A stretch of 64,000 nucleotides of DNA. Origin: Paraburkholderia caffeinilytica (GTDB lineage Bacteria; Pseudomonadota; Gammaproteobacteria; Burkholderiales; Burkholderiaceae). The first letter of the stretch is position 1. Every line of letters begins with the position of its first letter. Of this stretch, positions 6,524-36,025 are shown piece after piece. The notes under the pieces were generated by a model that saw nothing but the letters and a program-made list of their open reading frames with translations, searched no databases and was not told the origin of the DNA. A program made the position numbers and the translations under genes. Location of the stretch: contig NZ_CP031467.1 in the NCBI RefSeq assembly GCF_003368325.1, positions 2,170,001-2,234,000 of the forward strand, read 5' to 3'.

Positions 6524-9043
<2,520 letters not shown>

Positions 9044-11680: not shown

Positions 11681-12105
11681 TCGACAGCCCCTTGGAAATT
11701 AGGGACCTTTTCTCGTCGGTCCTTAATTACCTTGGACAACCCTTTTATCGCTGGCGCGTCCAACAAAAAATTACTCGCATGAGGGGCACGAAACACAAGC
11801 ATTTTTGCCAACACCGGGTCGTTTTCCAGTGAGCTCGCCTTTATCGGTTTGGAGAAGCGAACGCGGTATTCAATGTCTACGCCGTGACTGTCCCAATCCG
11901 CTTTCGGATATGGCTTTGACGTTATCACGCCCCATCCATACAAACCTTTGAAATGCTCGTCCCCAGACATCCACAAGTACACCAAATCGCCCGGAGCCAT
12001 TTCAGTTTGATAACGGGTGGCGTACCACACCGCCTGTTCGCCAGGGACTATCGCTGAGCGAAGGTCTAATCGCTCAGGCTTCGTCTGAAATAAAAATACA
12101 TTCAT
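11677..12105 (-). CDS. EVE-domain (PUA-superfamily) protein
   Basis: This compact 142-residue protein looks like a single EVE domain. It begins MNVFLFQTKPERLDLRSAIV and contains the hallmark stretch GDLVYLWMSGDEHFKGLYGW followed by VITSKPYP and a C-terminal helix. EVE/YTH-like folds bind modified bases in DNA or RNA and are found in type IV-like restriction enzymes. Here the domain stands alone and is coupled by a 4-bp overlap to a two-membrane-segment protein. A sensor/effector pair is the natural reading, unproven. The decayed IS1182 copy ends about 115 bp upstream. Confidence 0.7.
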   Translation of the reverse strand: MNVFLFQTKPERLDLRSAIVPGEQAVWYATRYQTEMAPGDLVYLWMSGDEHFKGLYGWGVITSKPYPKADWDSHGVDIEYRVRFSKPIKASSLENDPVLAKMLVFRAPHASNFLLDAPAIKGLSKVIKDRREKVPNFQGAVE

Positions 12106-12221: not shown

Positions 12222-12880
12222 TCATGTTCCGGGCCAAGTGTCACCGGCCTGACGACCGGAAGACGTTCCGCATTCTACGCGCGCGCGTACGAGCCACCGG
12301 CTAACTTTATTCTGGCTGATGCGGCTCGTCTTCGCCTCGGCGACATCGGACTGCGTCCGGTCCGCCGTCGCCATCGCCGCAAGGTAACGCGCGATGCTCT
12401 CATCAATCTGCTGCATGCGTGCCCGGACCTTACCACTCGTGAAGTTGCGATCACGATTGTTGACGGCTTTGAACTTGCTGCCGTCAATCGCCACGATCGA
12501 CTTTGAGAACAGATTCAGGTTACGGCACAACACGATGAATTGCCGGCATACATTACGGATCGCTTTGCCGTTGTCACGGCGAAAGTCGGCAATGGTCTTG
12601 AAATCTGGTAAAAGGCGGCCCGTGAGCCACATGAGCTCTATATTGCGTTGAGTTTCATGCTCCAAGCGCTGACTTGACTGAATACGGTTGAGATAGCCGT
12701 AGATGAATGAAGGAGACTTCCCCATCCGAGGTTCCGTCGAAGCCGAGATCATTGCAGGTCAAGCTCATCGAAGTTGACATCTACTATACGGACCGGGTTG
12801 TCGTCGGCGACATGGTCGTCGAGATACTCGGGTTGCAGGACGACTTGCTTTCGGCCTTCGCCTTCGACAAATCGCTTCAT
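12222..12880 (-). mobile_element. Decayed IS1182-family transposase fragment
   Basis: Reading the minus strand from 12880 gives an N terminus like IS1182-family transposases (MKRFVEGEGRKQVVLQPEYL, then DDHVADDNPVRIVD). A frame break near 12750 follows, then IYGYLNRIQSSQRLEHETQR, WLTGRLLPDFKTIADFRRDN and IVAIDGSKFKAVNNRDRNF. Homology fades at about 12310 after DRTQSDVAEAKTSR. The intact family enzyme is roughly 450-500 residues, so the internal deletion, frameshift and missing C-terminal half show a dead copy. No terminal inverted repeats could be placed. Confidence 0.8.
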
Positions 12881-13179: not shown

Positions 13180-13968
13180 TCAGCCATTTCCTCCTCCATG
13201 CTGAAATACCCGCTCCCGATGCCAAGGCATATAGTTCCGGTGCGCATCGTGCAGCAATCGCTCTCGTACTCGTAGCGCAGCGTCGAGACCCAGAGTGCGC
13301 CGCGCGGCCACGTCGAGCATTCCCGACACGATCACCGAACCGTCGTCGGCGACGGTGATGAAGCCCCGGTCAAAGGCAACGTCGAGGTTTGGTGAGAGCA
13401 GAAACCCGTTGAAAATATCGAGACGCTCGGCGTCACTGTCACAGAAAGCCCACGGCTTGATATGACTCGCGCGCAGCAGTTCAGGCACGGCGAGTCCGGT
13501 AATCGCGCAGCGTCCTTCCCAGTAATCGAGCAACCCCCCACGGAAGATGTCTTGTCCGACGCGCTGGACGACCAGCCGTTCGATCTCGGTGGTCCTTGGC
13601 AGCGTCGCGATCTGCTTCTCAAAACTGTGGAGCAACTCGTCAGGAAGTGTCTTGCTGAGCTGAAAGGCGCGGCGAAGCAGGTGGTGGAGCGAGGGAATAT
13701 CGGTGACAGTGCGGCCGCCGAGGGCTCCCTCCGGGAACGGATCGGCCATAGGCATGCCGTATTGGTCGAGCGCGCGAGCGACATTTTGCTGTGAGAAGGT
13801 GGCATGCACTGCTGTGCCGCCCGCACTTCTGAGCCAGATGCGAAGCGGGCACTGCGTACTCGCGAAGCCCAGCCAATCCTGCTCGACCAACAGATCCAGG
13901 TCAAAACCGTTGTCCACAGCGGCCTTTTCGATGCGCGTGATCGTGGCCGGCGAGAAGTCCATTGTCAT
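13180..13968 (-). CDS. HNH endonuclease, last gene of the defence-like operon
   Basis: The C-terminal half of this 262-residue protein has the HNH_2-type restriction nuclease pattern: YWEGRCAITGL, then LLRASHIKPWAFCDSD, then FNGFLLSPNLDVAFDRGFI. The conserved SHIKPW His, the Asn and the Asp residues are all present. The N-terminal half (about residues 1-150) is unassigned and may bind a partner or DNA. Its ATG overlaps the stop of the 101-residue orphan by 4 bp (ATGA), making it the seventh and last gene of the operon that starts at 28992. It is a likely DNA-cutting component. A second in-frame ATG two codons later is an equally possible start. Confidence 0.85.
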   Translation of the reverse strand: MTMDFSPATITRIEKAAVDNGFDLDLLVEQDWLGFASTQCPLRIWLRSAGGTAVHATFSQQNVARALDQYGMPMADPFPEGALGGRTVTDIPSLHHLLRRAFQLSKTLPDELLHSFEKQIATLPRTTEIERLVVQRVGQDIFRGGLLDYWEGRCAITGLAVPELLRASHIKPWAFCDSDAERLDIFNGFLLSPNLDVAFDRGFITVADDGSVIVSGMLDVAARRTLGLDAALRVRERLLHDAHRNYMPWHRERVFQHGGGNG

Positions 13969-14270
13969 GGTTTCTGCTTCACTTGCTTCGACGCCGGATT
14001 GCGAACCTCGCCGCTTTTGTCGCGGGCTTCTTCATCAATCCCCTGGTCTATCGACGGTTCCAACGACAGCGAAGTGAGTTCCGTCAGCGTGAGCTGCGCA
14101 TAAATCTCATGGAGTTGTCGCTTTGGCAATGCTCGCGGTTGTGACGTTTGATACTCGGCGACGGGCGGGGGTGATAGGCTACCTCTCGTAGGAGGGAGCT
14201 TTAGCTTGGCCACGGCCCAGCCCTGCTTCGTAGCGTCGCCCAGCAGCAGAGACGTGAAGAGCAACGTCAT
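13965..14270 (-). CDS. Small orphan protein between the ATPase and the HNH nuclease
   Basis: The 101-residue product has no recognisable domain: a hydrophobic start (MTLLFTSLLLGDATKQGWAV), a Pro/Ser-rich middle and a polar Lys/Glu-rich end. Its ATG overlaps the stop of the ATPase gene by 4 bp and its stop overlaps the ATG of the HNH gene by 4 bp. That arrangement strongly supports real, coupled translation despite the small size. It might be a subunit bridging its neighbours. Function unknown. Confidence 0.65.
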   Translation of the reverse strand: MTLLFTSLLLGDATKQGWAVAKLKLPPTRGSLSPPPVAEYQTSQPRALPKRQLHEIYAQLTLTELTSLSLEPSIDQGIDEEARDKSGEVRNPASKQVKQKP

Positions 14271-16258
14271 AGGTCACACCTCAGCAGTCGCTGTTCGGAT
14301 GGCACTCCAGCAAGAGTGAGTACATGCCAAGGGGCACTGAGAAGCGCCTGGGGCGGCTTCGTGGTCGTGGTGATGATGTACTGGAACGAAGGCTCCCCAG
14401 AGAAGCAGCCCTCAAGATGCTGCCCGAACAGGAACAGTCTCTCGTAGATATCGAGTGACAGGTCCGCTTCTCGCGGTCCGTCGTGAAGAAGAAATCGCGG
14501 AAAGGACCCTCGACCCTGAACACTCTCGGTTAGCGCCGCCAAGTCGAACGCCAGTAACTTTACGGTCGCAATAGCGGCGCTCTCGCGTTCACCATTGTGT
14601 TCAACCGTCAGCGCCAGAGAGCGCCCCGCGGCCGTAACGGTCGCAGTAACCTCATCTCCTAGGATTGCGCGCACGACGTAGTCGAATGTGGAAGCAAGGT
14701 GGCTCAGCCGCATGCTATTCTGGGCGCGGAGTTGCTCTTGGACGACGTACGAGGCATCGATCGCTACGGTTAAGGTTTCGATGGTTTCACGCTCATTGCG
14801 CGCGGTCGATTCAGCCCACTCTGCGTTATCCAACTGCTTGTCAAGATGGACAACGCCGGCGCGTTCTTCGAGTAACCGCCCTCGCTTTTGTTCGAGCTCG
14901 GTACGCGCAACCATCTCAGCTCTTGCAGCAGTCGATCGCTGGGCGATGCGCTCGCCAAGCACACCTCGAGCTTGTGCCAAACTAACATCAAGGGCTTGCA
15001 CCAAGGTTCGCAGGCGCTCCATCTCGCCGTTCACTACGCGCTCACTTCTTTTAGCTGCCAGGTCGCTCGGCAGCGTGGACGCCAGAGGACAGGTGCGATC
15101 GCGGGCTAGGCTCATCGGTTGGTTGCAGTACCCGCGCGCGGGAGGAAGACTCGACAGGAGGGACGCCGCCTCGCTTGGCTCACTGAGTGCTGCTAGTGCA
15201 CCTTGTTCTGCCTTCAGCCGGAGCTCCGCGTCCTCGACATCGCGCTTCGCGTTGGTTTCTTCTTCGATCGCTCGCTCAAGGCTGGCTCGAAGGGCCTCAA
15301 CACCACTCGATGCCGTGAGTGCTGCGAGCTGACCATCAAGGGTACGCCGTTGCTCTCGCAAAGCATCTCGTGTAGCCGCGGTGAACAGCTCAGTTGACGT
15401 AGGCTCTGGAGTTTCGGGGAACAATTCGCTCAGCCGCTGATGGTCGACTAAGGCTTGATGTTCTAACAACGGCGCACGACGGACAGCCTCCTTCCTTTGG
15501 ACTAAGCGCTGGGCATTGGCAAGTTGTTCGGCGCGCTCGGCGTCGCTAATCAGTCCCAGAACGGCGCGTACGACGAACTGGCGCTCATCGACACTCAGAG
15601 CGGGGGCATCCGACTCGCTGGAACTGTGGCGCCACTCGAGAAAGTCCGTGAACCGACACTCTTGGTCCCGTGAAAGCCACGGAAGAATGTGCTCCCATCG
15701 GATAGGCTGGTCGGTTGTCGGGAACCGGCGCGAGGGCAGACAATTTACAGCGGCACCAGCGATAGCGTCGAGAAAGTCTTGGTAGTCATGTCGCGCATCT
15801 CCATCGAACAATGCATCAAACGGAGCACCACGCCGGCAGAATGAATGTGCGCCGATCCCAAACGGTCGTGCTACAGCCCATTCGTCCCCGTCAACAATCA
15901 CCTCTGCCAATAACCAGCCAGCCGGGAACTTATCTCGGATTCGTCGGCGCGTCCTCTCATTTGAGAGGCCATGCTCACCGAGGGCGTAGCGAATCAGGCG
16001 ACAGAACGTCGTCTTTCCGGCCGTGTGTCCCGACATACCGGCCTGGAATAGCTCGTTTCCGCCGCCCGTATCACGAGGTGGCGTCCAAACGATGTTGAGC
16101 CCACGGCGCAATGAAACATCGCGCACGACGTACTCTTCGCCGCGGGCGAACTCTCGGACCACGCACAGGCGACGTACCCAGATGATCGGCTGTGTCACGC
16201 CGGCTGCGGGATGCAAGGCGCGGGGCAGATCGAGGTTAGGCAGTCGCAGTTGTGTCAT
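14267..16258 (-). CDS. SMC/Rad50-like ATPase of the defence-like operon
   Basis: The ATG at 16258 gives 663 residues beginning MTQLRLPNLDLPRALHPAAG. It overlaps the methyltransferase stop by 4 bp, so the longer upstream frame is rejected. Near residue 75 is a Walker A, SGHTAGKTTFCRLIRYAL. The middle, about 230-520, is charged and heptad-like (coiled coil) with a central proline-containing turn and CNQPMS. Near the C terminus, RFLLHDGPREADL resembles a Walker B/D-loop, followed by FQYIITTTTKPP. This is the split-ATPase plan of SMC/RecN/DUF2326-type proteins, which bind or translocate on DNA and often serve as core engines of anti-phage complexes. The exact family is not certain. Confidence 0.8.
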   Translation of the reverse strand: MTQLRLPNLDLPRALHPAAGVTQPIIWVRRLCVVREFARGEEYVVRDVSLRRGLNIVWTPPRDTGGGNELFQAGMSGHTAGKTTFCRLIRYALGEHGLSNERTRRRIRDKFPAGWLLAEVIVDGDEWAVARPFGIGAHSFCRRGAPFDALFDGDARHDYQDFLDAIAGAAVNCLPSRRFPTTDQPIRWEHILPWLSRDQECRFTDFLEWRHSSSESDAPALSVDERQFVVRAVLGLISDAERAEQLANAQRLVQRKEAVRRAPLLEHQALVDHQRLSELFPETPEPTSTELFTAATRDALREQRRTLDGQLAALTASSGVEALRASLERAIEEETNAKRDVEDAELRLKAEQGALAALSEPSEAASLLSSLPPARGYCNQPMSLARDRTCPLASTLPSDLAAKRSERVVNGEMERLRTLVQALDVSLAQARGVLGERIAQRSTAARAEMVARTELEQKRGRLLEERAGVVHLDKQLDNAEWAESTARNERETIETLTVAIDASYVVQEQLRAQNSMRLSHLASTFDYVVRAILGDEVTATVTAAGRSLALTVEHNGERESAAIATVKLLAFDLAALTESVQGRGSFPRFLLHDGPREADLSLDIYERLFLFGQHLEGCFSGEPSFQYIITTTTKPPQALLSAPWHVLTLAGVPSEQRLLRCDL

Positions 16259-19200
16259 CCGGTGGTTCCTGTCCGAAGTACCTCGCGAGCGTCGTCGGAC
16301 AATCCAGTGTCCACTTGCGCGAGCTGCTGCGTATCGAGGCTGCCTACAACTTGAAGAACTAACCTGGCCTCGAAGTCGTGCCACGCGCCAATGTCTGCCG
16401 ACGAAGGCGTGTTCGCGCCCCGCTCCACAGTGGCCTCTCCAGCTTTCACGTCAAAGCTGACGGCGCCATGCAATTCAAGCGTCTTGAGGAGCGGAAGAAG
16501 AGACACCGAGCTCGCTCGCGCGGAGACTGCCGTCACCCACTCGGTAGCTACCGACGAAGCGGCGGCTGGAGCGAGACCGCGGAGGACCGTCGGTTGGGTT
16601 CGAAGTGAGTACGCGCGGGCCAGTGTTGCGCGCCCAATGCTCCCATCGCTGGCGAGCACAATTGCCCAGATAAAGCGGGCGAGATCCTCGGCTGCCGGGA
16701 GATCCGTCACCGAGGCGGGCATCGCTGGCAGCACGAACCTTGGCGCATGCGCAACTCGAGGATCAGCGGGCGGCGGTTCGATGCGAGTCTGATAGGGCCT
16801 GCCGGTTCGTGCCGCTACCGCCATCTCGTCGTAGATTTCAAGGATCGTGTCTTTGGTTCGATACTTTCCACCATGAGCTTTCTCGTCGTTCCTCCGAACG
16901 ATCGGAAAGCTATCCATCACGTAGTTAGTGTCGTCGCGCGATAACGCGTAGAGGTGAAAGAATGCGGCGTCGAGCTCACAGCGGAGCAGGAAGCGGCGCT
17001 CGGGGCTCCAGATGAATGGCGAGCCGTCGTAACCGACGTCACGGGCGAAAGGCTCAAGATCCCAGGCGGTGAAAGTGAGTTCGAGAACGCGAGGCTGCAG
17101 CCAATCGTGGAGCGTACGCCCCAGCCATGAGATGTGTTGGTCTCCTGCCGTCAGGGCAAGCAGGGGGAGTTGTTCGACGATGAACGCGCTCATATGCATG
17201 CCGCCGATCTTCTGTCGAGCGACGAAGTCAAACGCGAAAGTGGTGACGTTCGCAATAAATGTGTGAAGCCGTTCCACTTGGGTCTCTTCTACGAACACTA
17301 CCTTTGCCGTGTCAGGAACAGCGAGCGAGGGAACAATCGAGGCGATGAAGCTACGTTCGTTTGTGGAGTTCGTTATGTCCCTCCAGGCTAACACCCAAGA
17401 GTGCTTCCAGCCCTTGCCGAATCGCTGCTTGGCGTCATCCTCAGGGTACCAATAGCGAGGACTTATAAAGCAACTAGGGTTCACCAGTTCAGCTGCAGTC
17501 AGTGGCCTATCGCCGTTGCGTTCGTTCGTAACCCAACGATGATCGTAGTGGTGAAAATACTTGCCCTCATAGAGCGGCAGACGATTCCCTCCAGGTTCCT
17601 TTTCGAAGCTGTTGGAGTCATCGGCGCTGTTGAGCAATCGTCTCAACTGAACCTTCCAGCCAGACGCGGGGATTACCGGCAAACGCAGGTAAATGGCCTT
17701 TGTGATCTCTGCGTCATGGCGCGTGCGGAAAATTGGACACGTCATTGTGGCCGGATTTAAAAGCGCGATTTCAGTCGCCGAAAGGTGGAAACGTCGCTCA
17801 GGGTCCTTCAGGTGCTCAACTCGCGTGGCGAAGAAGACGTACTCCGCAGATGTCACAGAAGAAGCACGGCCTGAGAGTGTCAGGATGCCGAACTTAAAGG
17901 AGCGGTGAACTGCGGGGAATATCGCCTCCCGATTCTCGAAATCAAAGAACGATACGAGGCTCCCACTCTCAACTATCGCCTGAAAGAAAAGCTTAGTTGA
18001 GTCGTCAGAGACGATCCCCGACGGTAGGATCTGGCCTACGCGACCACGCATTGATACGAGCGTCCGAGCTGCTTCCGCAAACAGAGAAAACAGATTGACC
18101 CGACCGACCCCGCACAATGGGTAGCGCACTTGCGAGCGCACAAAGGCATTTACCCCGTCCATCGCCCGCAGGGCTTCTTGGTATGCGCAAAACAGTGCGT
18201 GGTCTTCTATTTCAAGTTTCGCGATCATTCGCTTACGCACAGCCGCCGTTGGGGCTTGGGAAATATCAGGACGGCTGCCCGCAAAAAACTCCTCCTCACG
18301 AAAAAGCAGCGAGTCCCAGGGGGGATTCCCTAAAACAACATCAAATCCGCCCTTCGCGAATACCTGTGGAAACTGCAAGGTCCAGTGAAAGAAATGGCAC
18401 TGATCTGCCAGCTCGTTCACAGTCTTTAGCAGGAGGGAGGGCGGCTGTCCTAGTCCATCACGAAGCTGGAGCCACAGTTCGTTCGTCGGGGCAAACTCGG
18501 CAACTTCGCCGGACCACTTCGGCCAGATGAAAGCCGCACACCATGCATCCGCGACGAGCTTCTGGTGTCGGTACTCGGCCGAATCAAGGATGCCGTCCCA
18601 CTTCGATTCCTTCTTGGCGAGAGCCTCAGGATTCGCGTCGGGAGCAGCGTCCAGCTCGGCCACCGCCCGAGCAACTATTTCCGCTTCGGCGTTCGTGGGC
18701 GTGGACCAACCTAGGTCAAGCGATCGCTGGCCTCCGACCGCCTTCTGGTTTCGCTTCTTCAGCGAGCTCGCAATTTTCCTGTCATCGCCCCTGATTGGCT
18801 CCCACGCGGCGTCAGGGATGCCCTTTGCCATTAGCTCTGGCGTCGTGCCGAGCAGCGCATTGCCATGCTGGATATGTGAGTTGAGAAAGGTGAGCGGAAG
18901 CCCCGGCTCCACGGCTTCCATCCAGAGGCTCACTTTGCACAGCTCGACGGCCATGGGATTGAGGTCGACACCATAGATGCAGCGACCCACCACCTGCCGC
19001 AGAGCGTGTCGATACTCAGAAGCTGACGGCGTACCATTAGCCGAGATGCGCGCGACGTGCGATGCGAGCCGGCGTGCCGCCGCGAGCAGGAAGTGTCCCG
19101 AGCCACAGGCCGGATCGACGATCGAGAGGTTTAGCAGTGCATCGACCGGATTTTCCGGGTGCATCGCGACGGTGTCCTTGATGACCGGATCGAGGGCGCT

Positions 19201-20667
19201 ATCGAGCAGGACCTGCACTAGGCTATCAGGGGTGTAATAGCTGCCCGAAGTCTTTCGAGCGTTGCCTTTTGTCTCGCCACCGGTCGCGAAAGCAAACTGC
19301 CTGCCGTCCTTGGCAATCTGCGGAACCAACTCGAGCAGGCTTTCGTAAACGCTACCGAGTTCCTCGGGGCCCATATCGCGCCAGTTCACCCGCGAAAGGC
19401 CGGAATCCTCACGCAGCCAAGAGAGCTTGAATACGGCGAGGAGCAGCGAGCGGTTCTCCAGCTTTGCGGCGTCCAGTGTAGGGCATTGGGACCGAGCAAA
19501 TATGCCCGCCAATGCCGGGAGCCCGAGGCGGGGCTCGCCGGCGGCCACACCGCGAAACACTATCTTGGCCGCTTCCCAGAGGTCTGAGAAGCGGTCATGC
19601 GCGCTGCGCTTTACCGAACGCTCGCGGAGGCGACGCAAGCTGTAGCCTGTCGCGTAGAGCGACTTGGCCTTCTCGTTGGTGTCCTCGGGATGGAGCACGC
19701 CCCGCTCTTCGACGGTGAGCAGAAAGATGAGACGGTAGACAAGGCGCAGGAGCTGGTTGAAGTAGTCCTTGGTCGAGAGCGCTCCGCTCTGCAGCGCACT
19801 GCGGAGTGAGTGGTTATCGGAGTGGCTAAGGAAGCCTTGGCCTAGTGAGATGAGCGCGTCTTCCACGCCGCGCCGCAGATCCTCACGCGCGCGAGTGCCC
19901 TCTTCTCGACCGGCGATGCGCCAGGCTTCGAGCGAGCACTCGGTCACCGGCTGGTCCGCTCGTCCGAAGCGGCTCTCGTGCACGAGCAGCCAAAGTGCAG
20001 CAAAATCGGCGTATCGCTCTTCGGTGAAGAGACGCAGCAGGTCCGCTTCGATCCACGCCGGACGGGTGAGGCTTGCATTGTCACGAACGATACGAAGCGT
20101 GAGGCCGTCACTTACAAGACCCCACATCGCCGCGTCAGCGGCGTTCAGATATTCCTGTGCGAGACCAAAGGCACTGCGTCTGCGGGTGCCGTCGCCGAAA
20201 ACAGGCGAGAGCGTGTCGAGACCCCTACCCGCTGGAGCGACGACCACTGGCACACGGCCACCGAGTGCGGCAAAGCCGATGGGGTAGCTGCGCTCGTCGA
20301 GCACGACGGACTCAGCTTTTACAAAGGAGGAAAATCCGAAGCTGTCTCTCAACAGAGCTTCAACGAAACGCTCAGCGAGCAATCGCGCGTCGGCCTTGCC
20401 TTCCCGGCCCGCCGCAAAGTCTGTCCAGTGCGCCTGCGCGATTCGCCAGAAGCGCCCGATCTCGTCGCGAAGGTTGAGTCCCTTGTGGATACGGTAGTCG
20501 GACTCGCTCTGCCCGCCGGCGGTCAACTGCGCGGCACGCGCGAGCCAATCCGGTGAAAGCAACCCGCCCTCGATCGAAAGGGCCTCAAAAGCAAGCTGCG
20601 TTTCCCGGGCGCGAGTGCTTCTGCGCCTTGGAGAGAGGTTCGTTGTAGACGGTTTGCGTTCTGCCAT
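16255..20667 (-). CDS. Large Eco57I/PglX-type adenine-specific DNA methyltransferase (DrmMI-like)
   Basis: The product, about 1470 residues, is a class I N6-adenine methyltransferase of the size used in DISARM (DrmMI) and BREX (PglX). Residues about 440-490 carry SVYESLLELVP and the entry motif SGSYYTPDSLV. The SAM-binding motif I is IVDPACGSGHFLLAAARR (about 515-535) and the catalytic motif is VLGNPPWDS (about 780). A long C-terminal region probably recognises target DNA. The ATG at 20667 has GGTGG 10 bp upstream; a TTG at 20676 overlapping the previous stop is an alternative start. It would methylate host DNA so that the nuclease and helicase parts spare it. No separate specificity gene is seen. 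Confidence 0.92.
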   Translation of the reverse strand: MAERKPSTTNLSPRRRSTRARETQLAFEALSIEGGLLSPDWLARAAQLTAGGQSESDYRIHKGLNLRDEIGRFWRIAQAHWTDFAAGREGKADARLLAERFVEALLRDSFGFSSFVKAESVVLDERSYPIGFAALGGRVPVVVAPAGRGLDTLSPVFGDGTRRRSAFGLAQEYLNAADAAMWGLVSDGLTLRIVRDNASLTRPAWIEADLLRLFTEERYADFAALWLLVHESRFGRADQPVTECSLEAWRIAGREEGTRAREDLRRGVEDALISLGQGFLSHSDNHSLRSALQSGALSTKDYFNQLLRLVYRLIFLLTVEERGVLHPEDTNEKAKSLYATGYSLRRLRERSVKRSAHDRFSDLWEAAKIVFRGVAAGEPRLGLPALAGIFARSQCPTLDAAKLENRSLLLAVFKLSWLREDSGLSRVNWRDMGPEELGSVYESLLELVPQIAKDGRQFAFATGGETKGNARKTSGSYYTPDSLVQVLLDSALDPVIKDTVAMHPENPVDALLNLSIVDPACGSGHFLLAAARRLASHVARISANGTPSASEYRHALRQVVGRCIYGVDLNPMAVELCKVSLWMEAVEPGLPLTFLNSHIQHGNALLGTTPELMAKGIPDAAWEPIRGDDRKIASSLKKRNQKAVGGQRSLDLGWSTPTNAEAEIVARAVAELDAAPDANPEALAKKESKWDGILDSAEYRHQKLVADAWCAAFIWPKWSGEVAEFAPTNELWLQLRDGLGQPPSLLLKTVNELADQCHFFHWTLQFPQVFAKGGFDVVLGNPPWDSLLFREEEFFAGSRPDISQAPTAAVRKRMIAKLEIEDHALFCAYQEALRAMDGVNAFVRSQVRYPLCGVGRVNLFSLFAEAARTLVSMRGRVGQILPSGIVSDDSTKLFFQAIVESGSLVSFFDFENREAIFPAVHRSFKFGILTLSGRASSVTSAEYVFFATRVEHLKDPERRFHLSATEIALLNPATMTCPIFRTRHDAEITKAIYLRLPVIPASGWKVQLRRLLNSADDSNSFEKEPGGNRLPLYEGKYFHHYDHRWVTNERNGDRPLTAAELVNPSCFISPRYWYPEDDAKQRFGKGWKHSWVLAWRDITNSTNERSFIASIVPSLAVPDTAKVVFVEETQVERLHTFIANVTTFAFDFVARQKIGGMHMSAFIVEQLPLLALTAGDQHISWLGRTLHDWLQPRVLELTFTAWDLEPFARDVGYDGSPFIWSPERRFLLRCELDAAFFHLYALSRDDTNYVMDSFPIVRRNDEKAHGGKYRTKDTILEIYDEMAVAARTGRPYQTRIEPPPADPRVAHAPRFVLPAMPASVTDLPAAEDLARFIWAIVLASDGSIGRATLARAYSLRTQPTVLRGLAPAAASSVATEWVTAVSARASSVSLLPLLKTLELHGAVSFDVKAGEATVERGANTPSSADIGAWHDFEARLVLQVVGSLDTQQLAQVDTGLSDDAREVLRTGTTG

Positions 20668-20672
20668 GACGT

Positions 20673-23447
20673 TCAATCCACCCGTGGCAGTAGGACGAAA
20701 AGACCGATAACGTCGGCGGGTAGAAGCGCTTTAACGCTGTAGCTGCCGCGCGCGTCGGCGGCCTCACGAACACGACGATGATCAGCGAGCAGGGCCTGCG
20801 CCCGGCGCTCGGCGAAGGCATCCAGCTCGCCCGCGCGCGTCTCAATCTGCAATAGAGCCTGCTGTACCGCACGTTCGCGGACATGTGCCGGGGGGTCGGC
20901 TGAAGGTGGGGGAGCCAGCAAGGCCAGAGCTTCGACACCCTCGACCAGCGGTGCCTCACTACCTGTCCAGCCGAGCGCAGTTGCCTCTTCGACGAGCAAG
21001 GTCGAACTCCGGCCCGAGAGTTGACTAACAAGCTGGTGGCGCAGGCGCAGGAGCACCACGACGGTGCGGCTGGTCACTTCGGCCGAGGTCCAGCAACCGA
21101 CGCGACCAAGCATGCCGGGATCGTTCTCGGCTTCTTCGACGCTTTTACCAAGCGTGCGTTCCAGCAGTGTCTCGGCCAGCACCGACACCAACGGATGGCT
21201 GCGCTGGACCGAACGGCAACGTGGTGCGGGCGGGAATGCGAAGTCGATGAGGATTGAACCCGTTAGCCCTTCCGACTCAAGGCGTTCATGCACGTCTTGC
21301 GGCAGCGAGTCGAGCGGGGCCTTGAAACCTCGACGTAGTGGTTCGAGCCCAGACCCGAGTCTTGCCAACGCGCGCCCAGTAAAGCGCTGCACGTCTTCCC
21401 GACCGCCGACCGCCGCGAGTGATTTGTGCCACTCCGGAAGTACGTCTTCGGGCTTAAGCCTGCGCTGAGCAAAGACCGTGCGGTTCTTCTTGGCTTTATT
21501 TGCCGCGTCTTCCCAGCGTTCGTCGAAAAGCTGGAGCTGCTTCATGTTCGAGGTTTCGCCGCCTCCACGTCGCTTGAGCAGAACAGCCTTCAGCAGGACC
21601 TGGGTGAGCGTGTGCCCATCGTCAGGCACTGGGACCGGCACACCCAGTTCTTCCCGAATCTTGGCCGCCTTGCGGAGAATGACATCGAGCACGGCGCCGT
21701 CGACGGGGTTGTTCGCGCCATACATGAGCGTTGCGCGCACGATAGGCCGCTCCTGTCCAAAGCGGTCGACGCGCCCTTCGCGCTGTTCGTGGCGCGTTGG
21801 GTTCCACGAGAGGTCGTAATGCACGACGGCATCGAAGTGCTCCTGGAGGTTGACGCCCTCAGATAGACAGTCGGTCGCAATAAGCACCCGTCGCTCGGCA
21901 TCGCCGAGGAGGTCGACTTTTTCCTTGCGCTCGGTTGAGGTCTGCTCGCCAGTGACCACGGCGACGGTGATGTTCTTGAACTTGCCGTCGAGCTGGCGCC
22001 CAAGGTAATGCGCAGTTGCGATAAAGCGGCAGAACACGACTGGATTGAACCCATCAGCGATTAGTTCGGTCAGGTGTTGCGTGAGGACCTTTAACTTCGG
22101 GTCTCCAGACTGCCCAGCGAGGCGCTCGGCTTGGACTATGAGATCTTTCAATGCCGGGTCGTCCGTACCAGCGGGCGGCTCGACATCATCGTCGAGGAGC
22201 GCGTCGACTGCGCCGTCAAAAACCCGGCCTTCAAGTGCATCGGAGTCCTCGACTTCCTCGTTGCTGCCTCGAGTACGTAGAGCCTGAGCGGCAGCGGCTG
22301 GGCTCGAGGCCACGCAGCGCATCAGGGCCAGCGTGCCCCAGAAGTTGAGCCGCTGGCGCCGCTCGTCACCACCTGCGGCCTGTACGATTGCGGCGCAGTA
22401 GTCGAGCACCGCGTCGAAGAACTGCTCCCAAGCGCCTGTAAGTGTGTAAGTAAGCTCTTTGGTCTCACGACGCGGAAAAAGGTTGCCCTCCTTCCATTCA
22501 GCGATGTCGGGACGACGACGTTGCACGAAGTGTCGCGAGAGTCTCTCTCGCAGGTTGTCGCGCTCCGCGCCTGTCGTCTCCGGCAACTTTTCGAAGTCCC
22601 GATCGAGCAAGCCGAGAAGGCGAAAGAAGGCAGCTTCGTCACCGCTGTGCGGGGTCGCTGTCAGCATCACTAGGTGGCGTGTCGGCGACTCTGTCAGGCC
22701 CTTCAGTAACTCATAGCGCTGGTGGCGCCCAGGGCCGGTGGCGGCACACGTATGGGCTTCATCGACGATGACGAACTCGGGGCAGGCGCGAAGGAACTCC
22801 GCGCGACGACGCTCACTCTTGATGTAGTCGAGACTCACCACCGTGTGCGGGCAGGCGGAGAAGATGCTCTCACTCGGTGGGAGGCTCTTTTCAAGACGAT
22901 TCGCGCTTGCGGCCGTCACGGCTACTGGGTGGATGTGGAATCTGGCCTCAAGCTCTCCGACCCACTGGTCCACAAGATGTGGTGGGCATAGAACAGCAAG
23001 TCGTTCGATGTCGCCGCGGTCGAGCAGCTCGCGCGCGATCAGCCCCGCCTCGATGGTCTTGCCGATGCCAACATCGTCGGCGATGAGTAGGCGCACTGGA
23101 TCGAGCTTTAGTGCCATCAACAAGGGCACAAGCTGATAGGCGCGCGGCTCCACGGCGATCTGCCCGAAACCACGGAACGGGCCGGCGCCACGTCGCAGCG
23201 ACAGCAGCAAAGCATCGCGAAGGAGTAGGGCCGCATCGTGGCCAGCTCTCTGGCGTGGGTCCGGTCTCGGAAACGTCGCCTCTTCAACCGGTTCGGTCTC
23301 AAGCGCAATATGGATATATGTCTGGTCTTCTTCCGATCCAGAAACAGGCCGAATCCGGAGTGTCTCGGGATCGCTCCCAGTTAGAACAATCCATTCCCGA
23401 CCGCGGGCGCGGATCAGGCTCCCAGGGGCGTAGGCTATAGCACTCAA
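20673..23447 (-). CDS. SNF2-family helicase (DrmD-like)
   Basis: Taking the TTG at 23447, which overlaps the upstream stop as TTGA, the protein has 924 residues; the frame is open 48 bp further. Helicase motifs are in order: AYQLVPLLMALKLDPVRLLI, Walker A ADDVGIGKTIEAGLIAREL (about 120-140), DEAH box VIVDEAHTCAA, LMLTATPHSGDEAAFFRLLG, then the C-terminal lobe with VFCRFIATAHYL, IATDCLSEGVNLQ and HEQREGRVDRFGQ. The C-terminal 300 residues are family-specific. SNF2-like DrmD proteins accompany DrmMI methyltransferases in class 1 DISARM, and the same adjacency is seen here. No good ribosome site precedes the start, which suggests coupling to the upstream gene. Confidence 0.9.
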   Translation of the reverse strand: MSAIAYAPGSLIRARGREWIVLTGSDPETLRIRPVSGSEEDQTYIHIALETEPVEEATFPRPDPRQRAGHDAALLLRDALLLSLRRGAGPFRGFGQIAVEPRAYQLVPLLMALKLDPVRLLIADDVGIGKTIEAGLIARELLDRGDIERLAVLCPPHLVDQWVGELEARFHIHPVAVTAASANRLEKSLPPSESIFSACPHTVVSLDYIKSERRRAEFLRACPEFVIVDEAHTCAATGPGRHQRYELLKGLTESPTRHLVMLTATPHSGDEAAFFRLLGLLDRDFEKLPETTGAERDNLRERLSRHFVQRRRPDIAEWKEGNLFPRRETKELTYTLTGAWEQFFDAVLDYCAAIVQAAGGDERRQRLNFWGTLALMRCVASSPAAAAQALRTRGSNEEVEDSDALEGRVFDGAVDALLDDDVEPPAGTDDPALKDLIVQAERLAGQSGDPKLKVLTQHLTELIADGFNPVVFCRFIATAHYLGRQLDGKFKNITVAVVTGEQTSTERKEKVDLLGDAERRVLIATDCLSEGVNLQEHFDAVVHYDLSWNPTRHEQREGRVDRFGQERPIVRATLMYGANNPVDGAVLDVILRKAAKIREELGVPVPVPDDGHTLTQVLLKAVLLKRRGGGETSNMKQLQLFDERWEDAANKAKKNRTVFAQRRLKPEDVLPEWHKSLAAVGGREDVQRFTGRALARLGSGLEPLRRGFKAPLDSLPQDVHERLESEGLTGSILIDFAFPPAPRCRSVQRSHPLVSVLAETLLERTLGKSVEEAENDPGMLGRVGCWTSAEVTSRTVVVLLRLRHQLVSQLSGRSSTLLVEEATALGWTGSEAPLVEGVEALALLAPPPSADPPAHVRERAVQQALLQIETRAGELDAFAERRAQALLADHRRVREAADARGSYSVKALLPADVIGLFVLLPRVD

Positions 23448-26400
23448 GTGGCACGTCCGAGCGAGCAGGCTAGGCGTTCGAGCGGTGCAGACCACCCGGC
23501 CTCGTCGCTGCCGAAGATGATGAATTCGAATCCCTTGTCCTCGAACTGAGATGCGAGGCCGGCGGGCGGAGCATCGATCACCGCGGCAACGTAGTGGCCG
23601 CGCCAGACCAGAGGCACCCTCACCTCACCAAGGACCAGCGGCTTCGTGTCCGGGTCGGGAATTTCCCGCCTATGCAGAAGATCGAGAAGCCGTGCGATGG
23701 GCTCGACGTCGCCGGGAACTGCACTCGGTTGCAAGCTGCGCGGGGCGATCAATAGCGCGTCGAGACCTGAGGTTACTGCGCGCGCAAGCTTTACCAATAG
23801 AGTCCTAGCGTCGGCATCTCGGCGATCAATGCGTTCGTGATCGGGCTGGTTGTAGTACGACATGAGGCAGCGGTAGCAAGCTGCAACACATGATGTGTTG
23901 GGCACGTCGACAAGACCGTGTCCATCCGCTGGAAGGCTGGCCTCATCGATCACGGCAAAGTGCATGATGGAGAGCGCCTTGCGCGCGACCTCGGCGAGTT
24001 GCTCGCGATCAGTAACAAGTCGCGTGAGCACACCCGCCCCACCCTCGGTGGCCTCATAGAGAAGGAAACCATTGCGCTCTTCGCGCGTGGGCATCGGCTC
24101 CGCAAGGATTTCCCCTTCTTCAAGCTGAAAAACCGCTGCAATACCTCGCAACAGCGCGTGCTGAAGCGTCGCAAGCGTGGACTGCGACAGCCCTTGTGCC
24201 GTTGGCTGGAGCAAGAGAGCATTCTTGCGGTCCTGCACACTGGGAACGATCCACTGACGCGGCGATGCCGTCGGGTCGGTGGGCTCGTCACCCTCTTCCT
24301 CGTTCTTTGCCCAATAGCCGGACACCGGATCGATTCTGAATCCGAACTGCGTCCGGTTAGCACGCCGACGCAAGCCCTTGTTGAGGCGCGTGATGGTGGC
24401 TCCGGGCCCGTATGCAAGACGAACAATCTCGTCTCCGCCGTCAGCGGCTAAGCCGCGCCGAACATCGATAACGTGATCGCGCACCGCCCACTCGAACGTG
24501 GTCTGCAGATCGAAGCCTTGCCGCTGTCGCTCTTCGTCGTTCGCAGTGATACGCTCGGCCGGTTGCGTGGCGACGTTTTCGATGCGATAGACGTTCCGCA
24601 CGATTTCAGCATCGCCGAGCGAGGCATTGCAGGCATGGCACATCGAGGTCTGATCGTTGAAATGTCCGGCGCCGCAATTCTTGCAGATGCGCACCGCCTT
24701 TGTCGGCAGGAGAGTGTCAGGCGTCGTGCCGCCCTGGTGACTCAGTGACAGAAGCGCACGGACGACACGGAAAGCGCGCCCCTCGTGATATACGAGGCTT
24801 CGCGGTCCGAATTCCGAGAGCGCGAGAAACCGTGGACGCTGTAGGTATGTCTGTCGTCCGCGTCCATCGTTCGTCGCGGGTACGTACGCCATGAGCGGTA
24901 ACCGCGGGAAGTTGTAACCTGGCAAGAAGCCCTCGGTGGCAAGGTAGCGGTACGTGTAGAAATCGCTCGAAAGGCTGCTCGTGCCTCTCTGGAGCAGATT
25001 TAGCTGGTCGATAGCCTGTGCATGGCGACTCTGCGCCGCGCGCTTCTCCTGTTGGGGGGCGGCGTAGTCGTCCATTGTTCGACGTGCGGCGTCGCGCTGC
25101 TGCTCCGCAGCAAGGAAAAGGTCCCGCCATCTATTGAACGCCTTTTCGAATCGACCGAGCGCTTTGTCGACGACTTCGTTGGCGAACTGGTCTCGACCTG
25201 GATACCAAGGCGCAAGCACGTCGGTGAGATCGTCCTTGAGGAGATCGAGCACACGCCGGATACGGCGCACAGCCTCGGTTGATGCACGAGGCGTGCTCAT
25301 TGGAATTTTGACCTCCGGCCTGAGTGGTCGCGAGGGCTCTGTAAGGACGAGCAATTCGGAGATTGACGAATCGAGGGGCTCTTCGGTGCTGGCCAGCCAG
25401 ACCGCCGCGAGGTGGCTCTCGACCAGGTCGCGGTTTGCAAGGTCGAGCAACGGCGGACGAACTTCTCCGTGCACCATGCCTTTCGGGTCGCGGAAGAAAT
25501 ACTGGTCGTGAGGTCCTTGCGACGAGCAATACGTGAGGACAAGCGCCGCCTGGCCGCTGCGGCCGGCGCGACCGCTCCGCTGTGCATAGTTCGCCGGCGT
25601 CGGCGGGACATTGCGCAGGTACACGGCGTTGAGTGCTGAGATATCGACGCCAAGCTCCATCGTCGGTGAGCAGAACAGCACCGGCAGGAACCGATTGGCC
25701 TCGCCGATTTCGCGCAGGTGCTTTTCGTCTGCGGCGAGTTCATTGCGCTCTTTAATCTCATAGCGGAAGCGCTTCTCGCGTACCGCACGCTTATCACCAT
25801 CGACCTGTGCGGTGTGCTCGCGCGCCTCGAAGCCAAAGAGCGGATGAACCGGATCGCGAAGCAGGTGAGCAAGATTCGCGTAGAAATCGCGGAAGAAAGC
25901 GTTTTCGTTTGGGTGGGCCGGATCGATCACCGGCATCCGCTTTCTAAAGAGGACACACGCATCGTTGAGGCGCCAGCCGACTTGGTTGTTGAAGGGCGTG
26001 ACCTCCTCGGAAATGAGGCCATGCTTGCTCCCGGCAAAAAGGAGTTTTTTGATCAGCGTATCGAACTCCTTTGCCTTCAGCGCTCTCACCGCCGTGGTGT
26101 CATCCCAGAGCTTGCGACCGCTCGGCGACGTCGAGTTGCGTAAAATCTTGCCCAGCGCGCTGCGTGAGCCGCCGCGCACAATCAGGTCCTCATCCCGCAG
26201 CGTCGTGTCTCGCCGCGAGGGTGGTGAGATCATTAGCCAACGAGCCTGACGTGGTTTTTCGTCTATCCCGAATCCCCAAGGCGCACGCAGGCGGCTGTGC
26301 GACTTGGCCAGCATTTGCTCAACCGTCGTCGTTTCGAGGACTTGGCTGCGAATTGCCATCCATTTGCGCAAGTGATCTAGCAACTCGCGGTATACCTCGG

Positions 26401-28786
26401 CACGGGCGCGAGGCGAAGCCCGCCGCAGCACGTCCGGGGCATCCGCGAATAGCTCGTCGTCCGCGGCGAGGGCGTCGAGGCCGAGGTAATCGACCTCAAC
26501 TAATTCGAGCTGCTCCAGGTTCGGGTTTGTATAGCGCCAGCCGCGTCGCTGGTCGAACCAAACGCGGTATGAAAGAACCTGACGCAGCGTGCTCTCCGCC
26601 TCCTGCAAATTGAAGCCCTTGAGGCCGGGTTCAAGCAGCCACTCGGCACGGATCTCGGGACTCTGTCGGTCGAAGCCAAGGGCTTTTTGTTGGGCGCCAC
26701 CAAGTTCATCACTCCGCAGGCCTTTGTCGGCAGCGATCTGGAGCGCGCCGAGGAAACCCGCACGAATCAGGCTTACGAATAGGAAATCGTTGAAGTGGCC
26801 GGACTGCAAAGCCGCGTCCTGACGATTATCGGTAAAGCCGAGTAATTTGCGCGTGTGCGGCTCCAACCCCGAGCTGTCGCCGTGCATCCAACGCAGAGCG
26901 CTTCCGACGAGAACGGTTGTTGCCGAACTTCGGCCCTCAGCCGAGAGCGAGGCGAGTCGATTGCGGTCACGAGCTGCACCGCCCTGCGTGGCCCCGCAGC
27001 GTAGGCAAAAACGAAACTTGCCCGGCATGAACCAAACTTTGATTCCAGCACCAAGCTTTCCATTTGGAGCGACGGCCGAGGAGCGGGCGCGCGCCTTCCG
27101 GTAGTGTGGTTTCAGTCGCGGATTGCCGGCGACGTCGTATTCGAGCCAAGTCTCTGGATAATCCTCCTCCCGATCAGAGAACGAGAAGTCGGCATCAGAC
27201 GCGTGTGGAGTAAGGAAGCCGAAGATTTCCCTTTCCGTCGTGTCGTCGACATCGACGGTCGCGGGTTCACCTTCTTCATCGGGGCGCACCGGAGCGGCAT
27301 CGTCTATGTCACGCGCGAGATAGCCACGCTCCTCACCGTCGCTGACGAAACGCACCGGGTGATATTCGTGGCCGCAGTCACGGCAGAAATGGACCGGGTA
27401 CAGGCGCTTGTCGGGCTGGCCCGGCAGAAACTGTTGACCCTCCACGGTCACGGTGCGGGTACCAGGCGCTTCCAGCGTGGCGTACGCATGCCCGGCACCA
27501 GAAATGAACTGATGCAACTTGAAAGCGAAGAAACTGCGCGTGCTGCCTTCAGGCAGGCCGGTACGCTCGCGCTCCGTAATGCTCGATATCAACAAGAGGA
27601 CACGGAGCGCCTCACGACAAGAAGACTCGTTGCGGCCAGAGTCCTCGCGGAGGGAGCGGGCAGCCTCCTCTACGGTAAGTGGACGTGCCCGAACCCACCG
27701 CTGGTCGATCTCGGACCACGACACGCCAAGCCTAGTCTCGACCCAGATGGTCAGCGGATGCGTGCGTAGTTCCAGATCTGAGATTGTCGGTGCAAGGCCG
27801 GCGTCGATGGCAGGGCCTAGCGCCTTTCGCACGGATGCAGCGTTTTGCGCGGAATCGGTTACGCGCTCCAGCGTTTCGACGATGACGTTGCTCTCGGGGA
27901 TTACGATCGAGAAAAGTTTCGAAGCAACACCAGCAACGACGCGACTCTTGTCTTCAAGTGAGCCCTCGCTGGCCATGGTGGCGGAGGTGCCGATGCATTG
28001 GAGGCTCTCTGGCGACAACTGCTCGCGCACGCGGCGCACAAGCAGCGCCACATCGGCACCTTGGCGGCCGCGGTATGTGTGCAGTTCATCGAGCACCAAA
28101 AACCGCAGCCCCACACAGTTGCCGATCACCTTGCGATCGATCTCGTCCTGACGCGTCATCAGGAGTTCGAGCATCATGAAATTGGTGAGCAGAATGTCGG
28201 GAGGATTCTCTGAGATATCCCTCCGCGTCTCGGTGTCCTCCTGCCCGGTGTAACGGGCGAAAGTGACGGGCTTGTCGCCGGGTACGTTTTTTATGAACTT
28301 GTCGAGCTCCTCCAATTGGCTATTGGCCAGAGCGTTCATCGGATAGATGATAATGGCCCGTGTTCGGCGCTCAATTCTCGACCGCTTCTCAGCGAGCACA
28401 GCGTTGACGATCGGAATGAAGAAACAGAGCGACTTGCCCGAGCCGGTTCCTGTCGTGACGATGTAGCTCTCACCGTGTGAGGCAAGTGCGATCGCCTGCT
28501 CCTGATGTTTGTAGAGCGAGAGAGGCGATCCGTCGACTTGGAAGATTTCAGCCGTCTTCGGGTCGAGAGTACCACCAGCGATAAGCCCTGCTAGGTTCGA
28601 TCCCCGCTTATAGCTAGGGTTAATCTGGATAAGTGGCTCGGGCCAGAAGCGGCCGTCGGCATAAATTGCCTTGATCTGGTCACGGATATCTTCCGCCCTG
28701 ATCGTCGTGAACGACGTGGCGAACTTCCGGTACTCGCCGACGATCGTATCGCGCAGCGAGAAGACGTCCATGCTCTTTGCGCTCAC
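23444..28786 (-). CDS. Giant DEAD/DEAH helicase with DUF1998-type C terminus (DruE- or fused DrmA/DrmB-like)
   Basis: This is a 1780-residue protein. Residues about 90-240 hold the helicase core: LYKHQEQAIA, Walker A TTGTGSGKSL (111-120), YPMNALANSQ and DELH (233-236). The C-terminal lobe follows with SPTMELGVDISAL and NYAQRSGRAGRSGQ. Zinc-type cysteine pairs occur in HFCRDCGHEYH, FCLRCGA and ICKNCGAGHFNDQTSMCHAC. The end has the DUF1998 hallmark SCVAACYRCLMSYYNQPDH. In DISARM these functions are split between DrmA (helicase) and DrmB (DUF1998); in Druantia a single giant DruE has this plan. The start is GTG at 28786, overlapping the HTH stop by 4 bp, or an ATG five codons on. Confidence 0.9.
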   Translation of the reverse strand: MSAKSMDVFSLRDTIVGEYRKFATSFTTIRAEDIRDQIKAIYADGRFWPEPLIQINPSYKRGSNLAGLIAGGTLDPKTAEIFQVDGSPLSLYKHQEQAIALASHGESYIVTTGTGSGKSLCFFIPIVNAVLAEKRSRIERRTRAIIIYPMNALANSQLEELDKFIKNVPGDKPVTFARYTGQEDTETRRDISENPPDILLTNFMMLELLMTRQDEIDRKVIGNCVGLRFLVLDELHTYRGRQGADVALLVRRVREQLSPESLQCIGTSATMASEGSLEDKSRVVAGVASKLFSIVIPESNVIVETLERVTDSAQNAASVRKALGPAIDAGLAPTISDLELRTHPLTIWVETRLGVSWSEIDQRWVRARPLTVEEAARSLREDSGRNESSCREALRVLLLISSITERERTGLPEGSTRSFFAFKLHQFISGAGHAYATLEAPGTRTVTVEGQQFLPGQPDKRLYPVHFCRDCGHEYHPVRFVSDGEERGYLARDIDDAAPVRPDEEGEPATVDVDDTTEREIFGFLTPHASDADFSFSDREEDYPETWLEYDVAGNPRLKPHYRKARARSSAVAPNGKLGAGIKVWFMPGKFRFCLRCGATQGGAARDRNRLASLSAEGRSSATTVLVGSALRWMHGDSSGLEPHTRKLLGFTDNRQDAALQSGHFNDFLFVSLIRAGFLGALQIAADKGLRSDELGGAQQKALGFDRQSPEIRAEWLLEPGLKGFNLQEAESTLRQVLSYRVWFDQRRGWRYTNPNLEQLELVEVDYLGLDALAADDELFADAPDVLRRASPRARAEVYRELLDHLRKWMAIRSQVLETTTVEQMLAKSHSRLRAPWGFGIDEKPRQARWLMISPPSRRDTTLRDEDLIVRGGSRSALGKILRNSTSPSGRKLWDDTTAVRALKAKEFDTLIKKLLFAGSKHGLISEEVTPFNNQVGWRLNDACVLFRKRMPVIDPAHPNENAFFRDFYANLAHLLRDPVHPLFGFEAREHTAQVDGDKRAVREKRFRYEIKERNELAADEKHLREIGEANRFLPVLFCSPTMELGVDISALNAVYLRNVPPTPANYAQRSGRAGRSGQAALVLTYCSSQGPHDQYFFRDPKGMVHGEVRPPLLDLANRDLVESHLAAVWLASTEEPLDSSISELLVLTEPSRPLRPEVKIPMSTPRASTEAVRRIRRVLDLLKDDLTDVLAPWYPGRDQFANEVVDKALGRFEKAFNRWRDLFLAAEQQRDAARRTMDDYAAPQQEKRAAQSRHAQAIDQLNLLQRGTSSLSSDFYTYRYLATEGFLPGYNFPRLPLMAYVPATNDGRGRQTYLQRPRFLALSEFGPRSLVYHEGRAFRVVRALLSLSHQGGTTPDTLLPTKAVRICKNCGAGHFNDQTSMCHACNASLGDAEIVRNVYRIENVATQPAERITANDEERQRQGFDLQTTFEWAVRDHVIDVRRGLAADGGDEIVRLAYGPGATITRLNKGLRRRANRTQFGFRIDPVSGYWAKNEEEGDEPTDPTASPRQWIVPSVQDRKNALLLQPTAQGLSQSTLATLQHALLRGIAAVFQLEEGEILAEPMPTREERNGFLLYEATEGGAGVLTRLVTDREQLAEVARKALSIMHFAVIDEASLPADGHGLVDVPNTSCVAACYRCLMSYYNQPDHERIDRRDADARTLLVKLARAVTSGLDALLIAPRSLQPSAVPGDVEPIARLLDLLHRREIPDPDTKPLVLGEVRVPLVWRGHYVAAVIDAPPAGLASQFEDKGFEFIIFGSDEAGWSAPLERLACSLGRAT

Positions 28787-28992
28787 TTTGCCCCCCTCGT
28801 CGTCGGTTCATCGTGAGCTTCAGCACCGCCGTCCCGCACCCAGTCATCGACTTCGGAAAGCTTGAACTTCCAGAGACGGCCAATCTTGTGGGCCGGGAGC
28901 CCGCGACCTTCGATCCAGCGATATACAGAGTCGCGCGCGACTCCGAGGTGTTTCACAATGTCTTCGACTGAGACCCAGGGTTCCGCCACCAT
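28783..28992 (-). CDS. Excisionase-type helix-turn-helix protein, first gene of the operon
   Basis: The ATG at 28992, preceded by GGAGAAGAG, gives 69 residues: MVAEPWVSVEDIVKHLGVAR, then DSVYRWIEGRGLPAHKIGRL and WKFKLSEVDDWV. This is the winged helix-turn-helix of the MerR/excisionase (AlpA-like) type. Similar small proteins often open DISARM-like operons and probably act as transcriptional regulators, though a DNA-targeting subunit is possible. It is coupled to the giant helicase by a GTGA overlap. Confidence 0.85.
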   Translation of the reverse strand: MVAEPWVSVEDIVKHLGVARDSVYRWIEGRGLPAHKIGRLWKFKLSEVDDWVRDGGAEAHDEPTTRGAK

Positions 28993-35956: not shown

Positions 35957-36025
35957 CTCTTCCGTGCGGTACCCGTGCTTTTGTATCGGTTGCCGCCTAT
36001 CCAGCTCACGAACTAGCGATCATCC

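Follow-up and report, generated by a model that had tools for sequence, protein, structure and literature searches.

The system closest to the locus reported here is ARMADA Type I, whose main-text description (Bell et al. 2025, bioRxiv, PMC12458937) gives the gene order YprA helicase, BrxHII-like helicase and PglX-like methyltransferase, and states that in ARMADA Types I and II YprA ends in a Vsr nuclease predicted to be active. We analyzed a 64,000-nucleotide stretch of the Paraburkholderia caffeinilytica genome (contig NZ_CP031467.1, positions 2,170,001 to 2,234,000; hereafter the window). Between window positions 13180 and 28992, its minus strand carries seven intact open reading frames (ORFs) for, in order, a helix-turn-helix (HTH) protein, a YprA-family helicase, an SNF2 helicase, a methyltransferase, an SMC-like ATPase, a 101-codon product and an HNH endonuclease. 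A sequence-only reading of this DNA had proposed these seven same-direction genes as an undescribed defense operon related to DISARM and Druantia. All seven are present as ORFs, in agreement with the Pfam scan and motifs; the core was already described as ARMADA Type I in the main text of PMC12458937, and the operon looks like a Type I-like variant. It is likely an antiphage variant in which a separate HNH nuclease has taken over cutting from the Vsr domain, and to which a portable cassette consisting of a tail domain and the SMC-like ATPase was added.

The three core genes follow the ARMADA Type I order. The ArmC-like YprA helicase (23444–28786, 1780 aa) matched DEAD (101 bits) and MZB/DUF1998 (35.9 bits). 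It is followed by an SNF2/RapA-like helicase (20673–23447, BrxHII-like and ArmA-like) with Pfam matches to SNF2-rel and Helicase_C, and by an ArmB-like, Eco57I/PglX-like N6-adenine methyltransferase (16255–20676, 1473 aa; Eco57I, 65 bits). Motifs read by eye were GTGSGKS and DELH in YprA, DVGIGKT and DEAH in SNF2, DPACGSG and NPPW in the methyltransferase, and GHTAGKT and HDGPRE in the SMC-like ATPase. The order YprA–SNF2–methyltransferase–SMC recurs in other phyla, so the arrangement is more than chance. ARMADA Type II places the helicase/methyltransferase pair first, YprA third, and a GajB-like helicase with a RelE domain fourth, whereas YprA comes first in the window, and no UvrD/GajB or RelE match was found among the window proteins in PADLOC and Pfam scans.

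To place the proteins among other known systems, we applied the single-protein models of PADLOC-DB 2.0.0, rather than its system rules, to the window proteins. The best model for YprA was DruE1 (310 bits), the SNF2 protein matched PDLC02853 "DpdE" (622 bits over residues 19–938) and DrmD (258 bits), and the methyltransferase matched DrmMI (207 bits), so that the proposed kinship with DISARM and Druantia was borne out. The DruE, DpdE and DrmMI pieces were thus recognized, but the SMC-like protein was matched by LmuB alone (34 bits). PDLC02853 spans nearly the whole ARMADA SNF2 helicase, and PADLOC may label ARMADA helicases as DpdE. Class 1 DISARM (DrmD, DrmMI, DrmA, DrmB, DrmC) resembles the operon in its DrmD- and DrmMI-like proteins, and a same-family SMC gene lies behind a tailed DrmMI in DISARM locus L020; however, the window has a single 1780-aa YprA protein instead of separate DrmA and DrmB, and no match to DrmC or phospholipase D was found among its proteins in the PADLOC and Pfam scans. 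Druantia types are distinguished by the partners of DruE, namely DruABCD, DruMFG or DruH. The window YprA scored best against DruE models, and no other Druantia protein was among the PADLOC matches listed for the window proteins. Lamassu (LmuA/LmuB/LmuC) differs as well: neither LmuA nor LmuC was among the listed matches, and the SMC-like ATPase of the window would sit on a restriction complex.

The window operon departs from ARMADA Type I in its nuclease. At the C terminus of YprA (~residues 1660–1780, 23447–23809), the Vsr-type domain is degenerate and the motif PDFxY...DGxxH is lost; we therefore file the operon as a variant of ARMADA Type I, further set apart by an HNH nuclease in trans, the SMC-like ATPase and the tailed methyltransferase. 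The HNH_2 endonuclease (13180–13968, 262 aa) was identified by Pfam (45.8 bits) and by a family alignment. C-terminal alignments showed that the Vsr motif is kept in nearly all loci lacking HNH and lost in loci carrying it, including the window. Among 59 loci with YprA ORFs of at least 600 aa and more than 300 bits, the motif was absent from 40 of 40 HNH loci (L090 scored positive by hand from its annotation, as the HNH gene spans the record start) and present in 16 of 19 HNH-less loci. The three exceptions were L087, whose helicase is truncated, L093, where an IS21 element follows the methyltransferase, and L096, where EVE and DUF2357 genes come next. L077 had a long ORF without C terminus and a degenerate second ORF. 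Loci with insufficient YprA (L002, L003, L019, L031 and others) fell outside this set; L003, L019 and L031 kept the Vsr motif and lacked HNH. In a separate sample drawn from the phylum of the window (398 genomes), the complementarity held in six of six further loci, with no helicase end to score in L127 and L130. It looks, from these sequence patterns, as if a separate HNH nuclease took over from the decayed Vsr domain in window-type ARMADA.

In a YprA tree, the 40 HNH loci together with L087 and L093 formed one clade (100/99), and L092, which kept Vsr and lacks HNH, was its sister. The HNH group persisted in a FastTree tree of 58 rows without the C-terminal domain, where the order of L090 and L092 was unsettled. 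As the HNH loci form a single clade, the 40 are not independent events, and the trees suggest that the swap probably happened once and was retained as the clade spread across several phyla. The sequence-only reading had taken the HNH nuclease as part of a replacement of DrmC; we rejected this in favor of Vsr replacement, since HNH goes with the decay of Vsr.

The fifth gene encodes the SMC-like ATPase (14267–16258, 663 aa). Its predicted model (mean predicted local distance difference test, pLDDT, 86.8) shows two halves of an ATPase head joined by an antiparallel coiled-coil hairpin, as in SMC/Rad50-type ABC ATPases, and the Walker motif residues are invariant or nearly so across 50 SMC-like sequences. 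A structure search with this model matched chains of YydD-YydB (PDB 9a6c), Lamassu, Rad50 and Smc. YydD-YydB is not known to be part of a restriction system. When the SMC profile was run against the sequences of solved structures, most matches were coiled-coil proteins (best E 0.0048). Neither the SMC-like nor the 101-codon protein had anything over cut-off in the Pfam scan; the SMC-like protein scored 18.6 bits against DUF2326, under the gathering cut-off of 28.7, and many of its listed homologues carry precomputed PF10088. When the main text of PMC12458937 was searched for these terms, neither SMC nor DUF2326 turned up, and HNH appeared solely in the title of a reference.

To examine where this ATPase occurs, we used 36 aligned SMC-like sequences to scan a collection of species genomes; this yielded 239 relatives, and we took a census of the best 80 loci by profile searches inside them. 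The SNF2–methyltransferase core accompanied SMC in 46 loci, and 33 of these 46 also had HNH, in line with the co-occurrence of ATPase and HNH genes with the core that the sequence-only reading had expected. The other loci had an ARMADA-type methyltransferase only (8, several at contig ends), type I (6) or type III (3) restriction, BREX (2), DISARM (2), HNH without the core (4), or were unassigned (9). Restriction, BREX and DISARM labels came from PADLOC scans of eight loci (L006, L007, L016, L020, L021, L044, L049, L082), and the remaining context labels from similarity to the proteins of these loci. SMC relatives were found directly behind type I HsdS, type III Res, BREX PglX or DISARM DrmMI. 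The genes before SMC were PglX/PglZ/BrxL in L006 and PglX in L007 for BREX, HsdR/M/S in L044 and HsdS in L016 for type I, Mod/Res in L049 and L082 for type III, and DrmD/DrmMI in L020 and L021 for DISARM, with DrmA, DrmB and DrmC following SMC in L020. The ATPase, previously read as one of the genes standing in for DrmC, is an add-on shared by several restriction systems, one of them a complete DISARM that also has DrmC, and these contexts also led us to reject it as an ARMADA-only part. Type IIL MmeI was rejected as an extra context: the "MmeI" gene of L112 sits between the helicases and SMC like an ARMADA methyltransferase. In the phylum sample, eight genomes had the SMC gene, the window's own included, and of the eight hits in the other seven, seven followed an ARMADA methyltransferase, in some cases split in two ORFs, and one followed a type III Res. 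The SMC query had no match in phage records. L082, filed in IMG/VR as a viral contig, has a type III Mod-Res with a tail, then an SMC-like gene. In three Polyangium loci (L008, L010, L011), the queries used found no restriction gene near the SMC-like gene.

Such varied company could also be expected of a helper that assembles large restriction complexes or compacts DNA and does no sensing, next to an HNH nuclease that is an ordinary cutter. Relatives of the SMC-like fold, which we assigned from structure matches, bridge or compact DNA, which agrees with such a role. This explanation is unlikely, because the SMC gene was absent from 16 of 18 ARMADA regions on plasmids (taken from 18 of the 67 helicase-bearing plasmid records; L087 decayed, L090 cut) and is not generally needed for assembly.

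Most proteins encoded upstream of the SMC relatives end in an extra domain of ~170 residues. In the window, this tail covers ~residues 1300–1473 of the methyltransferase (16258–16779; AlphaFold2 mean pLDDT 88.5), and we propose that it is a dock for the SMC-like ATPase. In the other systems, the best family profile ends early, at residue 558 of 731 in the HsdS of L044, 432 of 589 in the HsdS of L016, 1354 of 1522 in the DrmMI of L020, 1044 of 1237 in the Res of L082, and 1098 of 1265 in the Res of L049. The remaining segments resemble methyltransferase tails: the HsdS tail of L044 had 45% identity to that of methyltransferase L073 (E 2e-34), and the Res tail of L082 had 35% identity to that of methyltransferase L026 (E 2e-38). 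With hhalign, class A methyltransferase tails matched HsdS and Res tails with probabilities of 100% and 99%, respectively. For class B (rows of classes B and C were grouped by inspection and pairwise tail comparison), methyltransferase tails matched those of HsdS at 90%, the BREX PglX of L007 at 98%, and a methyltransferase-DrmMI group at 98%, and class B matched the Res group of L049 at 95%. In a third class, the Res tail of L130 matched the methyltransferase group of L124 at 99.6%. Classes A and B were joined at 84% (E 7.5e-6), compared to 0.1% in a reversed control. By these sequence comparisons, tails within a class are homologous across unrelated protein bodies.

The tail and the SMC gene are closely linked. 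A tail profile seeded with 20 methyltransferase tails was tested on 80 proteins lying before SMC, those of the window and of 79 loci. By this profile 54 of them had the tail, L023 and L024 weakly, and 15 of the 26 profile-negative proteins belonged to class B groups by comparison. The 11 proteins without tail assignment were those of L005, L006, L008, L010, L011, L014, L021, L022, L032, L055 and L079; in L021, the protein tested was an extra ORF between DrmMI and SMC. On plasmids, the profile found the tail in 0 of 15 ARMADA loci without SMC (some methyltransferases cut or split: L088, L090, L091, L102) and in two of two with SMC. Methyltransferases were 1414–1660 aa long with SMC (n = 47) and 1101–1402 aa without (n = 12), with no overlap. 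Among 72,556 plasmids, seven records matched a class A tail query, all with the SMC gene just behind, and four of these seven also matched a second tail query, from Res. The SMC query matched ten records, eight over most of its length, of which seven had the tail; the class B tail of the window had no match in this collection. We rejected the tail as a mere mark of an operon's last gene, since in L020 the tailed DrmMI and SMC precede DrmA, DrmB and DrmC. Literature searches turned up no paper on the tail or this SMC family. A 2020 classification of ABC ATPases by Krishnan and colleagues reportedly says in its abstract that ABC ATPases also act with restriction systems, and an earlier mention of this family is possible.

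Tail and ATPase also appear to have been exchanged together. Compared to L076, its nearest relative by helicase, the window had identities of 72% for YprA, 75% for SNF2 and 61% for the methyltransferase body, but 27% for the tail and 30% for SMC. Compared to the distant Vsr-type locus L002, it had 46% for SNF2, 40% for the methyltransferase body, 42% for the tail and 50% for SMC, so that the ranking of the two loci was reversed for both tail and SMC. Identities to L004 were 64% for YprA, 66% for SNF2, 55% for the methyltransferase body, 32% for the tail and 51% for SMC. In the SMC tree, in conflict with the YprA tree, the window fell together with L004 and with L002 and L003, both of the Vsr type; the SMC tree required 11 context changes versus a minimum of five (62 labelled rows, FastTree; long branches). 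As both the tail and the SMC-like ATPase of the window are closer to those of L002 than to those of L076, the two seem, judging by these identities, to move as one cassette. On balance, we favor the view that an unnamed mobile tail-SMC cassette plugs into ARMADA Type I, DISARM, BREX, and type I and III restriction by fusion of the tail to the preceding methyltransferase, specificity or restriction subunit, bringing a DNA-clamp or sensor ATPase, and that in ARMADA it accompanies the one-time Vsr-to-HNH swap independently. Two observations count against this view: the third tail class joined neither class A nor class B by hhalign, and the tail evolves fast, so that a drop in identity at the tail alone proves little. 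Both temper our confidence in the cassette and in the operon interpretation.

The interval between SMC and HNH is a variable cargo slot. In the window it holds the 101-codon ORF (13965–14270), whose codons 31–60 (14091–14180) match the extreme C terminus of a 385-aa protein in the same slot of L076 (21 of 31 identical, E 7e-6; next-best match E 0.076). That protein scored 130 and 183 bits as a DUF1016/YhcG nuclease, and by this match the ORF is what remains of a YhcG/DUF1016 nuclease gene. We therefore rejected it as a defense component, the part given to it as a 101-residue orphan in the sequence-only reading; it also lacks a Pfam match. Elsewhere, the slot carries a kinase and YhcG (L076), YhcG (L047), AlbA_2 (L004), a UvrD-like helicase (L045), cargo without Pfam match (L033), or a 628-aa ORF for a putative DUF262 protein, as judged by eye (L072).

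In the mechanism that we propose, the PglX-like methyltransferase would mark host DNA, as extrapolated from ARMADA and BREX, and unmarked DNA would be picked as foreign. The SNF2 and YprA helicases would translocate on or open the DNA, and the tail, given its distribution and its exchange with the ATPase, may hold the SMC-like ATPase on the restriction complex. LmuB is thought to act as a DNA clamp or sensor in Lamassu. By analogy, the SMC-like ATPase may be an ATP-driven clamp or sensor that licenses cleavage, and the HNH nuclease would take over cutting from the dead Vsr domain. A tentative alternative, possible but less than probable, is that the ATPase, with or without HNH, is a PARIS-like guard or backup, which senses failure or inhibition of restriction and fires a toxic nuclease, with the tail as bait. 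The kinase, YhcG, AlbA_2 and UvrD-like genes of the cargo slot would suit such a guard, as would the RES-domain protein encoded directly after the SMC gene in BREX locus L006 (11522–12616). The relevant passages of PMC12839542 describe backup effectors next to BREX in which OLD-ABC ATPases pair with HNH or other nucleases, likewise joining an ABC ATPase and a nuclease to methylation-based defense; those ATPases are of the OLD family, and the passages describe no shared tail on methyltransferase, HsdS or Res. The guard is disfavored in that SMC and HNH are no fixed pair, as the core occurred with HNH but without a detected SMC gene in five of the 59 loci (the L090 record was searched in part) and with SMC but without HNH in 13 of 46, and in that the dead Vsr tracks HNH, not SMC. 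According to the main text of PMC12458937, moreover, ARMADA Type II defended without abortive infection.

The genes are tightly packed. Overlaps of 4 nt are possible at all six junctions, more than the four counted in the sequence-only reading: HTH/YprA (28783–28786), YprA/SNF2 (23444–23447, SNF2 most likely starting with TTG at 23447), SNF2/methyltransferase (20673–20676), methyltransferase/SMC-like (16255–16258, stop and ATG), SMC-like/101-codon ORF (14267–14270), and 101-codon ORF/HNH (13965–13968). The SNF2/methyltransferase overlap needs a TTG start, and an alternative ATG at 20667 leaves a 5-bp gap, which confirms the ambiguity seen earlier at this junction. The SMC-like start was corrected to 16258, from which its homologues align, and the ORF start at 16384 was dropped. 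As every junction may overlap, the genes are probably translationally coupled. The first gene, with bounds corrected to 28783–28992 (69 aa, ATG start present), encodes a small HTH_17/MAD1-like DNA-binding protein (HTH_17, 49.2 bits; NCBIfam MADS1, 60.1 bits, under the cut-off of 80). It was rejected as a conserved operon member, since only one of 20 relatives tested had an HTH match upstream of YprA at E < 0.001 (L109, E 1e-7).

Mobile genes flank the operon on both sides, as would be expected if unrelated genes had gathered in a defense island. This explanation is highly improbable and already contradicted by the 4-nt overlaps, a gene order shared across several phyla, the tail fusion and the tail-SMC linkage. 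On one side lie Tn7/Tn5053-like transposition genes (31482–37867, plus strand) with TniB (116 bits), two TniQ (50 and 35 bits), and TnsA-like and rve matches under cut-off. Just downstream of the HNH gene are an EVE-domain protein (11677–12105) and a DUF772 transposase fragment (12222–12752). TniB genes also lie downstream of the ARMADA-SMC loci on plasmids L085 and L111, with TniQ in L111. On the Nocardioides plasmid pNOCA01 (L098, typed conjugative), an ARMADA core, annotated DISARM drmA/drmB and McrBC-like genes adjoin. With gyrB (6572–9043) lying ~4 kb away from the operon, the island may be close to the replication origin.

The degenerate Vsr/HNH swap, the YhcG remnant and the occurrence of the SMC-like ATPase outside ARMADA go beyond the main text of PMC12458937, and the swap suggests which nuclease does the cutting in ARMADA Type I. 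If our interpretation is true, SMC-type ATPases would be general restriction accessories attached through an exchangeable docking domain, and not only the cores of Wadjet and Lamassu. This would explain the large "chromosome segregation protein SMC" annotations beside restriction genes, make the tail a sequence tag for finding further host systems, and offer a way to test directly how SMC clamps contribute to classical type I and III enzymes.
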